Positions 9,015 through 24,180 of a stretch of DNA of 64,000 bases are shown here, piece after piece. The notes below the pieces were generated by a model. The model saw only the letters and a program-made list of their open reading frames with translations, had not been told where the DNA came from and searched no databases. This DNA comes from Propionispira arboris. GTDB lineage: Bacteria > Bacillota > Negativicutes > Selenomonadales > Selenomonadaceae. The stretch spans positions 62,001 through 126,000 of the forward strand of contig NZ_FNZK01000014.1 of NCBI RefSeq assembly GCF_900109225.1, in the 5' to 3' direction. How positions within the stretch are numbered: the stretch's first letter is position 1; every line of letters begins with the position of its first letter. A program made the translations under genes and the position numbers.

Positions 9015-9089
9015 AAATTTAGTTGTAAATATTTATTCTTTTTGTTACAATGAGTCTGTTTATTAAATAAATAAAAATTTTATAAATCA

Positions 9090-9172
9090 TTCCACTAGGG
9101 GAGCGAAAGCTGAGAGACCGCAAGGTCGACCCTTGGAACCTGTTGGGGTAATACCTGCGTAGGGAAGTGGCT
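9090..9172 (+). promoter_or_regulatory. TPP (THI-box) riboswitch
   Basis: The conserved thi-box elements are present in order: CCACTAGGGGAGC, GCTGAGAG, ACCCTTGGAACCTG, GGGTAATACCTGCGTAGGGAAGTGG. The outer P1 helix pairs CCACT with AGTGG. It precedes thiC and is followed by a terminator hairpin, so thiamine pyrophosphate binding should cause premature termination. Confidence 0.97.
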
Positions 9173-9187
9173 ATTGGTTTTCGCGAG

Positions 9188-9250: not shown

Positions 9251-10558
9251 ATGGCAACACAAATGCAAATGGCTCGTCAAGGAAAAATTACTGATTTTAT
9301 GAAACTGGTGGCCAAACAAGAACAGGTGGAGGCTGATCTGATTCGTGATCGTGTCGCCGCGGGAACGATTGCAATCTGTGCAAATATAAATCATTCATCA
9401 TTGATTCCACGGGGCGTTGGACAAGGTCTTTCCACAAAAGTAAATGCAAATATTGGTACTTCAAGTGCTTATCCTGATTTAGAACCAGAACTTTTAAAAT
9501 TGGCAGCTGCCATTAATGCTGGTGCGGATGCTGTCATGGATTTAAGTACAGGCGATCATATTGATATTTCACGTCAGAAAATAATAGAACAATCAACTAT
9601 TATGGTGGGTACGGTGCCAATTTATCAAGCTACTGTCAATGCCATAAAAACTCATGGAGCGGTTGTAGATATGACTTCAGATGATTTGCTGCATGCAATA
9701 GAACAACAGGCGAAAGACGGAGCTGATTTTATGACATTGCATTGCGGCGTGACCAGAGAAACGATTATGCGAATGCGTCGTCAAACCCGTGTGATGGACG
9801 TGGTGAGTCGCGGTGGATCTTTTATTACAGGCTGGATGCTGCATAATGAAAAAGAAAACCCACTATATGAACATTATGATGATATTTTAGATATTTGTGA
9901 AAAATATGATTCTACGATTAGTTTAGGAGATGGTCTTAGACCAGGCTGCCTGGCGGATGCAACGGATCGTGCTCAAATACAAGAACTCATTATTTTAGGT
10001 GAATTGGTTGATCGTGCGTGGAAACGAGGTGTTCAAGTTCTTGTAGAAGGACCGGGACATGTACCTTATGATCAAATTGAAGCGAATATGAAACTGCAAA
10101 AACAACTTTGCAAAAATGCACCATTTTATGTGCTGGGACCTTTGGTTACAGATATTGCACCGGGCTATGATCATATTACAGCAGCAATTGGCGGCACCTT
10201 GGCGGCAGCGAGCGGAGCTGATTTCCTGTGCTATGTAACTTCTGCTGAACATTTGGCTTTGCCAACGATAGAAGATGTTCACGAAGGTGTTATTACTTCG
10301 CGGATTGCAGCGCATGCGGCCGATATTGTAAAGGGTATTCCAGGTGCCAAAGAATGGGATTTGAAAATGGCCAAAGCACGCAAGGTGCTGGACTGGGATG
10401 CTCAGATGAATCTTGCTATCGATCCTGAAAAAGCTAAAGGTAAACGTGGCGCCAGAAATGAAGAAGGTGCAGAAGGCTGTTCCATGTGTGGAGAGTATTG
10501 TTCGGTAAAAATTGTAGGTGAATATCTAAATAAACCCGTTACGTATTGCAATGAGTAA
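9251..10558 (+). CDS. thiC: Phosphomethylpyrimidine synthase ThiC
   Basis: A radical-SAM enzyme that turns aminoimidazole ribotide into HMP phosphate, the pyrimidine half of thiamine. 435 residues, the shorter bacterial form lacking the long N-terminal extension. Visible parts are GADAVMDLSTGD, the long central TIM barrel with VEGPGHVPYDQIEANM, and the C-terminal Fe-S motif EGCSMCGEYCSVK (CxxCxxxxC). The start ATG has TAGGAGG upstream. The gene stands alone under a TPP riboswitch; no other thi gene is adjacent. Confidence 0.98.
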   Translation: MATQMQMARQGKITDFMKLVAKQEQVEADLIRDRVAAGTIAICANINHSSLIPRGVGQGLSTKVNANIGTSSAYPDLEPELLKLAAAINAGADAVMDLSTGDHIDISRQKIIEQSTIMVGTVPIYQATVNAIKTHGAVVDMTSDDLLHAIEQQAKDGADFMTLHCGVTRETIMRMRRQTRVMDVVSRGGSFITGWMLHNEKENPLYEHYDDILDICEKYDSTISLGDGLRPGCLADATDRAQIQELIILGELVDRAWKRGVQVLVEGPGHVPYDQIEANMKLQKQLCKNAPFYVLGPLVTDIAPGYDHITAAIGGTLAAASGADFLCYVTSAEHLALPTIEDVHEGVITSRIAAHAADIVKGIPGAKEWDLKMAKARKVLDWDAQMNLAIDPEKAKGKRGARNEEGAEGCSMCGEYCSVKIVGEYLNKPVTYCNE

Positions 10559-17124: not shown

Positions 17125-17409
17125 ATGATTAAGCCATTAGGCGACAGAGTTGTCATTGAAGTTTCAGAAGGCGATGTAAAAACTGCAAGTGGTATCGTAT
17201 TACCAGATACAGCGAAAGAAAAACCGCAAAAAGGTAAAGTTGTAGCAGTTGGCACAGGTAAAATTCTCGAAAATGGTCAGAGAGCAGCTATTGATGTAAA
17301 AGCGGGCGACAGCATCATTTTCTCCAAATATGCCGGAACTGAAATTAAAGAAGACGGTAAAGATTATCTGATTGTCAGTGAAAGAGATATTTTAGCAGTT
17401 GTTGAATAA
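17125..17409 (+). CDS. groES: Co-chaperonin GroES
   Basis: 94 residues: [16 protein letters not shown] at the N-terminus, a mobile loop (about 17-33, [18 protein letters not shown]), and [15 protein letters not shown] near the roof hairpin. Seven subunits cap GroEL during folding. Ribosome binding site GGAGG. It is the first gene of the CIRCE-regulated operon, 52 bases before groEL. Confidence 0.98.
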
Positions 17410-17446: not shown

Positions 17447-19108
<1,662 letters not shown>

Positions 19109-19109
19109 T

Positions 19110-19345
19110 CTGTAAAGATTATGTGTAGAAAATATAATTTTATAAAATCAGCACTGCACATGTTGATTTTATAAAAGGAATGGTGCCTGACCGTTTTCTT
19201 TGTAGTGAATTTATATTTTAGCTGGGAATCGCTGCACACGGTTTCAAGTTGAAATATGATCATATAGAACTCAGGAGGCATAAAAAGTAAAATAAACCAA
19301 GACCTTTTTTGATGTCACGATCATTTTGGTCTTGGTTTATTTTTT
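19110..19345 (+). ncRNA. Structured non-coding unit A downstream of groEL (candidate RNA, ends in terminator)
   Basis: No credible ORF lies on either strand, but the sequence is rich in self-complementarity. Hairpin 1 (about 19140-19173) pairs TTTATAAAATCA with TGATTTTATAAA around a loop containing CTGCACA. Hairpin 2 (about 19221-19251) pairs CTGGGAATC with GGTTTCAAG (one mismatch) around GCTGCACAC. A longer-range CCTGA/TCAGG pairing encloses hairpin 2, followed by GGAGGCAT. The unit ends in a strong terminator (about 19294-19345; AAACCAAGACC with GGTCTTGGTTT, then T-rich). Unit B repeats the same elements. I do not recognise a known RNA family; existence as an RNA is inference. Confidence 0.5.
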
Positions 19346-19905
19346 ATTAAATCGATAATTTTTTTATAGATTAGTTGACAAGTCCTGCTACATTGGATTA
19401 TTATGTAAATTATATGGAATGAAATATTTTGTACGGAACGGACTCTGCACACACAAGATCTTCGTAATTTTTTTAGGCAGCTGTAAAAAATTGATGAACT
19501 CATACAAAAATGAGAGTTATGGATTGAGGCTGCCTTCTCATCGCGATTGAAGTCATAGCAGCACCAGAATTTTAAGAGGCAAAACACAATCAATATATAT
19601 TCATGTATTGATTGTTGAAAAATTTTTATACAATTATTGCTGCACACTTTAATTGTATAAGATTACCTTTAAAATTTATATTTAATCAGGTGCCACGACT
19701 TGATTAGCAGTCAGATTTTATAGGTATTATATTCTTGCAGATTTTATATCTGCAAGAACAGATGAACCTGAGATTTAGCCATCTACTGCTGTACACTTTG
19801 GTTAGCTAAAACGCAGGTTTGTCAAAAAAAACCAGGGAGGCATCCTACCCTAACTGGAACAAAGACTTCGAAGATGATCTTGATCATTTTTGGAGTCTTT
19901 GTTTT
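19346..19905 (+). ncRNA. Structured non-coding unit B (candidate large RNA, ends in terminator)
   Basis: About 560 bases without a credible gene, with a dense series of stems. AGGCAGC...GCTGCCT (19475-19534) encloses AACTCAT/ATGAGAGTT. Next are CAATCAATA/TATTGATTG (about 19587-19614) and TATACAATTA/TAATTGTATA (about 19627-19660), the latter with a GCTGCACAC loop. TTCTTGCAGA/TCTGCAAGAA (19732-19758) follows, then AACCTG/CAGGTT (about 19765-19819) enclosing a hairpin with a loop CTGCTGTACAC. GGGAGGCAT precedes a terminator (about 19858-19905, ACAAAGACT with AGTCTTTGT). The CTGCACAC loop (also at about 19443) and the GGAGGCAT segment are shared with unit A, which suggests tandem related RNAs or one modular RNA. 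Confidence 0.5.
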
Positions 19906-19913
19906 ATATAAAA

Positions 19914-19951
19914 AAAATCCGCTGCTGGTTTGAGATTTGGCAGCGGATTTT
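19914..19951. terminator. Bidirectional intrinsic terminator
   Basis: AAAATCCGCTGC pairs with GCAGCGGATTTT, A/T-rich on both sides. It lies just downstream of the minus-strand gene at 19969 and of unit B. Confidence 0.8.
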
Positions 19952-19968: not shown

Positions 19969-20187
19969 CTAGTGAATATGTTTTCTCAAATGAATAGAAT
20001 TTAATAGATCAACAACTGCAATAAATAAAAAGAATAGACAAATAACTTTCGTGGTAAAAGTGAGAATATGCAATGCTGTTTCAAAATAAATACTCCACAC
20101 TCCTATGATTGGTGAAATGAAAAGAAAAATCATTAAAGCACCAAAAGACATTAAAAATAAATAAGCAGCGGGGCAATTTTTTAGCAT
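19969..20187 (-). CDS. Small two-helix membrane protein, unknown function
   Basis: 72 residues with two hydrophobic segments (about 8-30, AYLFLMSFGALMIFLFI; about 42-60, TTKVICLFFLFIAVV) and a basic, His-containing tail. The start ATG has AAAGGAGATG upstream on its strand, which supports a real gene. No family is recognised. It is monocistronic with a terminator behind it. Confidence 0.6.
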   Translation of the reverse strand: MLKNCPAAYLFLMSFGALMIFLFISPIIGVWSIYFETALHILTFTTKVICLFFLFIAVVDLLNSIHLRKHIH

Positions 20188-20490
20188 GATATCATCTCCT
20201 TTTATACTTCTATTATATTCTGAATTTTCTGTTTTGTGAAGCAGAAAAAGTGAAAAAGGGACATAAAATGAAGAAAATATGAATAACTTTGCTTATTAAG
20301 TCCGGTGTAGCAGGGATTTTTTTGAATATATAGAATTTTAAAGATATGTGTTAAACTATGAAACAGTTGAAAAGAACATACTTTTTTTACATAACCCATA
20401 TATTCGGATCTTTCCAGAATGTTAGAAACTCATTTTGTGTTTTACTTATAAGGCATTGCTTTATAAAAATTATAGAAGGAGAGATGTAAA
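20188..20490. other. AT-rich intergenic region upstream of the chemoreceptor
   Basis: About 300 bases between divergent genes. I see no convincing ORF or known RNA; it should hold the promoters of both neighbours. Confidence 0.4.
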
Positions 20491-23088: not shown

Positions 23089-24069
23089 TTAGATGAGGCC
23101 GATGATCCTCTGGACGATCAAGGATACGACAGCGACGGCAATCCAACAGCACAGCCCTAAAGTAATTGGTTTGAGACCGTTTTGAATTAATGATTTTAGA
23201 TTTGTATTTAAACCGATTGCACTCATTGCTAGAATAATGGAAAATTTACCCATATTGCCTAATGCAGATGTGATTGCATTAGGCAATATGCCACTTGTAT
23301 TAACAATGGAAGCAACAACAAACCAGAGGATAAACCAAGGAAATATTTTTGCAAGGTTAAATGTACCGGTTTTCTTTTGGTCTTGTGCTGTAAGAAAAGC
23401 AAACAGCAGGCATACTGGTACAATCATCAAAGCGCGCGTCAATTTTACGATCGTGGCATAATTTCCAGCGGCCGTGCTATAAGAGTAACCAGCTGCCACA
23501 ACGGAAGAAGTATCATTAATCGCAGTACCGGCCCACATACCAAAACCAGTATTGCTTAAATTTAAAAAGTGACCAATAGCAGGAAAAATAAAAACAGCTA
23601 TAACATTGAATAGAAAGATTGTGGAGATAGAAAAAGCGACATCCTGATCTTTGGCACCGATGACCGGTGCAACTGCAGCAATGGCAGAACCGCCACAAAT
23701 CGCTGTACCTGCTCCAATAAGGATCGTTGTATCTTTATCAAGCTTTAGCACTTTACCAATGCCATAGGCGACACCAAAGGCCGTAATTAGTGTAAAGATC
23801 ATTACATAAAGTGATTGTGAGCCGACTGCCATGACATGAAATAAATTCATTTCGAAGCCGAGTAGAATAATGGAGTACTGTAATATTTTTTTGCCGGTGA
23901 ATTTGATGCCTGTTTCAAAAGATGATGGACGTTTAAATGTTGCTGCGGCAATGCCGAGTAAAATGCCGAATACAGGACCGCCAATAATCGGAAATTGATT
24001 ACCCAAAAAATAAGCAGGGATTGCAAATAAAAAACAAAATAAAATACCTTTGATGTGTTGTTGATTCAT
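23089..24069 (-). CDS. YeiH/PSE-family putative sulfate exporter
   Basis: About 326 residues of inner-membrane protein with roughly ten hydrophobic segments. Family motifs are visible: GLFIGIAA-like GGPVFGILLGIAAATFKRP, IGAGTAICGGSAIAAVAPVI, and GMWAGTAINDTSSVVAAGYSY. The PSE family is annotated as exporters of sulfate-like anions on limited evidence. I use the ATG at 24069, because the GTG at 24081 overlaps the AAAGGAG ribosome binding site. A LysR regulator is divergent, the usual yeiH-yeiE pairing. Confidence 0.88.
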   Translation of the reverse strand: MNQQHIKGILFCFLFAIPAYFLGNQFPIIGGPVFGILLGIAAATFKRPSSFETGIKFTGKKILQYSIILLGFEMNLFHVMAVGSQSLYVMIFTLITAFGVAYGIGKVLKLDKDTTILIGAGTAICGGSAIAAVAPVIGAKDQDVAFSISTIFLFNVIAVFIFPAIGHFLNLSNTGFGMWAGTAINDTSSVVAAGYSYSTAAGNYATIVKLTRALMIVPVCLLFAFLTAQDQKKTGTFNLAKIFPWFILWFVVASIVNTSGILPNAITSALGNMGKFSIILAMSAIGLNTNLKSLIQNGLKPITLGLCCWIAVAVVSLIVQRIIGLI

Positions 24070-24180
24070 TAAAAAATTCACTCCTTTTCTTGTTGTAAGC
24101 TTAGCACTTGCACATTGATATGTAAAATAGTATAATTTTATAAAAACGATAGGTAAAAATAGATGAAAGGAGTAAAGCGA

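Follow-up and report, generated by a model that had tools for sequence, protein, structure and literature searches.

CsrB-type RNAs titrate CsrA, whose binding site is ANGGA. In the multicopy LhrC sRNAs of Listeria it has been established that redundant identical motifs, located in loops and single-stranded stretches, serve as interchangeable binding sites, the motif UCCC being directed against Shine-Dalgarno sequences (PMC4132741). The sibling sRNAs NgncR_162 and NgncR_163 (NmsR) of Neisseria form an adjacent pair that is 78% identical; both members are sRNAs and, like LhrC, pair with translation starts (PMC9973317). ROOL, GOLLD and OLE are large ornate RNAs of bacteria (PMC12286853). For the Negativicutes, the literature that we searched holds little on non-coding RNA. 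The Propionispira locus described here adds to this class a well-supported structured RNA locus that is new and without a database family, yet of a known kind, namely a probable structured 3′UTR together with a sibling-like predicted sRNA.

The window, that is the whole stretch of DNA analysed, comprises 64,000 nucleotides of Propionispira arboris. Its non-coding, strongly folded stretch at positions 19109-19910 is located directly 3′ of groEL (17462-19108, + strand) and is flanked on the other side by an opposite-strand ORF of 72 aa. The ORF assigned to groEL has GroEL sequence, an ortholog in 38 of the 41 genomes searched, and groES (17125-17409) upstream of it. No conserved ORF was found in 19109-19910, where the frames are not kept in the sister species P. 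raffinosivorans; a protein-coding reading of the start of the second unit was discarded because its 40-odd-codon frame is broken in that species by a 2-base deletion. The sequence CTGCACA is present at positions 19154, 19232, 19445 and 19640, and CTGTACA at 19789. These five copies of CUG(C/U)ACA compare with a mean of 0.075 copies of CTGYACA in dinucleotide shuffles of 19109-19910 (n = 5000), none of which reached five. The three copies of CTGCACAC in the 64-kb window are likewise all inside this region, and GGAGGCAT occurs at 19274-19281 and 19836-19843, with a strong hairpin and a T-run shortly 3′ of each copy. A first-pass annotation of the sequence had proposed two adjacent units, each with its own terminator. 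This division stands, with terminators at 19289-19346 and 19859-19906, and the locus is two adjacent RNAs, not one. In P. arboris both units have the same order of motifs (CUGCACA, GGUGCC, a CUGYACA hairpin, GGAGGCAU and a terminator), which suggests that they originated by duplication. When the whole region was compared with its own genome by BLAST, no match between units 1 and 2 was reported and only the short motifs are common; with a model based on unit 2 alone, unit 1 of P. raffinosivorans is detected weakly, at 25.5 bits.

Unit 1 (19109-19346, + strand) follows groEL without a convincing promoter, a consensus scan of the + strand having found no good one, and it ends in the first strong terminator 3′ of groEL (19289-19346), which is predicted to fold into a 16-bp stem followed by a T-run. 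The simplest reading is therefore that unit 1 is probably the structured 3′UTR of groESL ending in the operon terminator. Two hairpins of this unit carry the motif in their loops: HP1 (19138-19176; CUGCACA at 19154-19160) and HP2 (19218-19252; CUGCACA(C) at 19232-19239), which score 48 and 44.9 bits, respectively, with a hairpin covariance model (R1) that was itself built from these hairpins. P. raffinosivorans DSM 20765 (G001) carries the locus at the same place after groEL. In this species the stem of HP1 shows A-U to G-C and C-G to U-A changes, that of HP2 shows one-sided variation by G-U swaps, and both loops are identical to those of P. arboris. The terminator contains two double compensatory changes. 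A closing helix is formed by GGUGCC (19182-19187) as 5′ arm and GGAGGCAU (19274-19281) as 3′ arm, with GUGCC pairing with GGCAU at 19277-19281. Two C-G to U-A double changes affect both arms of this helix in P. raffinosivorans, in which the 3′ arm reads CTAAACAC. The observation made at first pass that GGAGGCAU precedes the terminators thus applies to both units, but in unit 1 it is the pairing of GGUGCC with GGAGGCAU that is kept between the species and the sequence that is lost.

Identity between the two species amounts to 98% for groEL, 73% for the body of unit 1, 83% for the 5′ part of unit 2 and 96% for the unit-2 core (19549-19735). In the consensus fold of unit 1, which was derived from the same two sequences and is thereby favoured, all pairs (70/70) are kept in both species, 11 of them being changed on one side and seven on both, versus 39-49% of cells paired and zero or one double changes in slid controls; the double changes, which come from a single pairwise comparison of two carrier species, are the stronger evidence. 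Calculated without the terminators, the fold z-scores are -4.6 for unit 1 and -8.0 for unit 2 in P. arboris and, with the non-coding character of the stretch, these values bear out the folded non-coding region that had been annotated after groEL. The corresponding scores for P. raffinosivorans are -6.3 and -5.0, and for both units in both species the + strand gives a stronger score than the reverse complement. Since an ordinary intergenic control (20188-20490) reaches -3.1, the z-scores alone are not decisive (groEL: -0.2). Every CUGCACA copy that the two species have in common is unchanged. As judged from these two species, selection acts on the RNA structure of unit 1, CUGCACA being kept while the stems change, which is the pattern put forward by the first-pass annotation.

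A promoter (TTGACA-N18-TATTAT; 19375-19404, + strand) that matches the consensus at 11 of 12 positions is located between the units; both hexamers are identical in P. raffinosivorans and the spacer contains one change. Because it has its own consensus promoter and its own terminator (19859-19906, conserved in P. raffinosivorans; terminator scan match 19859-19902), unit 2 (about 19411 to 19906, + strand) is predicted to be transcribed alone. Together with the fold z-score and the conserved core, this indicates that unit 2 is probably a separately transcribed sRNA of ∼0.4-0.5 kb. Its predicted length is ∼495 nt in P. arboris, instead of the ∼560 nt estimated at first, and ∼415 nt in P. raffinosivorans. 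A block of 97 nt (19623-19719, + strand) does not contain any change between the species, though drift is seen in much of the non-coding sequence around it. The GGUGCC of unit 2 (19689-19694) is inside this block and could pair with GGCAUC at 19839-19844, but the energy model does not predict this pairing. The GGAGGCAU of unit 2 (19836-19843) corresponds to GGGGGCAT in P. raffinosivorans. As a separate observation, the terminator of a gene for a flagellin-like protein of 277 aa (L147, L148) has the sequence AGGTGCC-TTTTGCA-GGCATCT and resembles the GGTGCC/GGCATC of unit 2, which may be a coincidence.

According to the energy model, open apical loops are clear only at 19154, 19232 and 19789 in P. 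arboris. The first-pass picture of five loop hairpins was thus right as to the five copies of the motif and too regular as to their structure. The copy at 19445, which is part of CUGCACAC (19445-19452, identical in P. raffinosivorans), is paired within a small 5′ stem, UGUACGGA/UCUGCACA, whose 3′ arm contains it, and is not in an apical loop. The copy at 19640 would form the loop (19640-19646) of a possible hairpin HP4 (19626-19660; 47.9 bits with R1), but it is probably partly paired, as an alternative long-range fold that buries CUGC is better by 7.5 kcal/mol than the local hairpin. HP5 (19775-19809; loop CUGUACA at 19789-19795; 41.6 bits with R1) is absent from P. raffinosivorans, in which ∼75 nt including this hairpin are missing. 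HP4 is identical in the two species and hence uninformative on covariation. When six hairpins were aligned on their loop, 88% of the cells were paired, and the alignment contained 20 double-change cells versus 8 in shuffles, a number attained by 0/500 of these. Model R1 finds the loop hairpins in both genomes and gives no other match with a comparable score. The presence of identical motifs on changing stems points to a common partner for the two neighbouring RNAs.

The first-pass annotation had failed to match the region to a known RNA, and the Rfam search that it recommended agrees: with cmscan at the gathering threshold over the whole window, no Rfam 15 family was found in the region. The only match in the window is an ordinary TPP riboswitch (9087-9182, + strand; 64 bits) just upstream of an ORF (9251-10558) read as thiC. 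Relaxed Rfam matches in the region were below the family cut-offs, the best one having 28 bits against a cut-off of 60, and were dismissed as chance. Homologues were detected by BLAST only in P. raffinosivorans among 60 relatives, and searches for wider carriers with the motif pattern (380 genomes of the class), the hairpin model (60 genomes) and the core model (380 genomes) returned none outside the genus. The sole match of the core model outside Propionispira (G130; E 0.005) resembles a terminator and has neither the loop nor the remaining motifs. Scanning a collection of 84,980 species for an exact 18-mer retrieved P. raffinosivorans; a single further match, in Auritidibacter, was rejected as chance with 12.6 bits only, and the element was not found in the plasmids, phages and viral contigs searched. 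As weak evidence only, no paper of the literature searched contains a word beginning with CUGCACAC. No CTGYACA was seen downstream of groEL among the relatives' loci listed with a readable groEL end; in several of the relatives read, groEL is directly followed by a short terminator. An ancestral element of the groEL 3′UTR was rejected, since CTGYACA is missing from the relatives' downstream regions that were read. Conservation across the Negativicutes, which the first-pass annotation had asked to be checked, was thus not found; among the ∼380 Negativicutes genomes scanned, in which very diverged relatives could be missed, the element is confined to Propionispira. With no other true carrier found and no CTGYACA after the groEL of the relatives read, it appears to be either recent or lost elsewhere.

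A gene for a membrane protein read as YeiH-like (23089-24081, - strand) is located ∼4 kb away from groEL in P. arboris and adjoins it in two other genomes (G040 and G037), so that the stretch holding the RNAs, together with the small ORF and a chemotaxis receptor, has apparently been inserted 3′ of groEL in Propionispira. The small ORF (72 aa; 19969-20187, - strand) is membrane-like, its DNA is 92% identical and gap-free in P. raffinosivorans, and a hairpin at about 19907-19950 is probably its terminator.

We consider it somewhat more probable than its converse that the locus encodes two related structured RNAs, found in Propionispira only, a groESL 3′UTR and an sRNA, which are sibling-like and whose CUGCACA motifs dock one partner. 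Both units would then be regulatory RNAs with several loops that work together much like siblings, and the repeated CUGCACA would constitute redundant docking sites for a common partner, which may be a protein or an RNA carrying UGUGCAG. For this partner the sRNA would compete with the groESL mRNA, or with a piece cut from the 3′UTR of the latter, or the two would jointly act on it. The complement of the motif, GTGTGCAG, shows no excess at translation starts: nearly all of its 71 sites are in coding sequence and about 1/71 is at a convincing translation start, which is chance level. By this sequence test classical mRNA targeting is not supported. One candidate target, a leader read as that of a sodium:solute symporter, was rejected because of a mismatch in the sister species.

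If the partner is an RNA, the loops may kiss in trans with loop GUGUGCAG of the terminator of the major flagellin mRNA (G000:C38:70324-70359, L137; G001:C38:18940-18975, L145), which would link chaperone output to the fate of the flagellin mRNA. In both species this entire 8-nt loop is the exact complement of the CUGCACAC motif, the hairpin with GTGTGCAG being directly 3′ of the flagellin gene and identical in P. raffinosivorans, and among the 71 GTGTGCAG sites examined elsewhere in the genome only at the flagellin gene does a strong hairpin have the site as its apical loop. A complement-loop hairpin model (R3), which combines one real terminator with three made-up stems and serves as a search descriptor only, detects this site with an E-value of ∼1e-11 and otherwise, apart from its own reverse complement, nothing below 1 in either genome. 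The isolated loop-loop duplex has a calculated energy of -12.1 kcal/mol, and ∼0.01 occurrences of a fixed 8-mer are expected by chance in such loops, a value extrapolated from hairpins of the window and before allowing for the several contexts examined. The match is therefore suggestive of kissing at the level of sequence. However, the 3′ region of the flagellin gene hardly differs between the two species, so that its conservation carries little information, and in another member of the Negativicutes (G040), in which such RNAs were not found, the flagellin terminator is almost the same in its stem and in its loop, GTGTGTAGATA (L155), indicating that the flagellin loop probably predates the RNAs and does not depend on them. 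All in all, we regard kissing with the flagellin terminator as quite unlikely. Even less credence is given to the full circuit, specific for the genus, in which two RNAs would present the same loop to a common partner, possibly this terminator, and couple chaperone expression to motility.

Alternatively, the motif could be the site of an RNA-binding protein that also regulates the groESL 3′UTR, with unit 2 titrating the protein as CsrB does. The occurrence of the same loop on different stems, invariant save for the C/U difference in HP5, agrees with such a site, and so does the finding that the complement is no more frequent at translation starts than chance would give. On the other hand, the motif differs from the CsrA site ANGGA and has only four to five copies, of which two are not in clearly open positions, and no such hairpins occur elsewhere in the genome; as it stands, this explanation is tentative and rather doubtful. 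The stems might also merely protect the 3′ ends of the groESL mRNA and of the neighbouring transcript, the shared loops being leftovers of a duplication without a partner. That unit 1 is a 3′UTR whose stems persist while its sequence drifts is what protection predicts, and the common motif order points to duplication. Nevertheless, unconstrained loops should drift at 73% identity and the shared CUGCACA copies are all identical, and the unchanged 97-nt block of unit 2 would be left unexplained, so we hold mere protection of the ends to be unlikely. The first-pass annotation had offered a choice between a new ornate RNA and a tandem regulatory RNA, and it is the second that fits better. An ornate RNA like ROOL or GOLLD that assembles with itself through its loops would also be non-coding, large and highly folded, and the loops contain palindromes (UGCA, 4 nt; UGUACA in HP5, 6 nt). 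Yet Rfam gave no match to ROOL, GOLLD, OLE or another family, the length differs by ∼75 nt between sister species and the element is absent from the phages, plasmids and viral contigs searched, which makes this the case for only very long odds. Should the loops of the two RNAs share a partner, as we propose, the locus would show how a regulatory pair can be made up of the 3′UTR of an essential operon and an sRNA gene next to it. It would also show at what pace RNAs of this sort emerge, this one having been found in a single genus.

With ROOL, GOLLD and OLE the locus has in common that it specifies large folded non-coding RNA in bacteria; it differs from them by the lack of a covariance-model match, a length that varies between two species and its genus-restricted chromosomal location. 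As in CsrB and RsmZ, the same loop is repeated on different stems, but motif, copy number and context are different, the loop being CUGCACA and not ANGGA. The likeness to LhrC is that related RNAs carry one short motif repeatedly, in loops as well as in single-stranded stretches, and that these copies would be redundant binding sites. LhrC RNAs are about 0.1 kb in size and, to our knowledge, have no mRNA 3′UTR relative, whereas unit 2 is ∼0.5 kb and the motif is CUGCACA, with a complement that is not enriched at translation starts. NgncR_162/163 resemble the locus as two adjacent RNAs with a related fold and a common loop; here, in contrast, only short motifs and their order are common and one unit is probably a 3′UTR. 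Identity between the copies is not high, and pairing of the loops with ribosome-binding sites was not seen in the sequence test; we therefore do not call the locus a sibling sRNA. Unit 2 has a promoter of its own, for unit 1 the consensus scan gave no good one, and the two units of P. arboris share a common architecture with the same motif order. The locus may work like sibling sRNAs.
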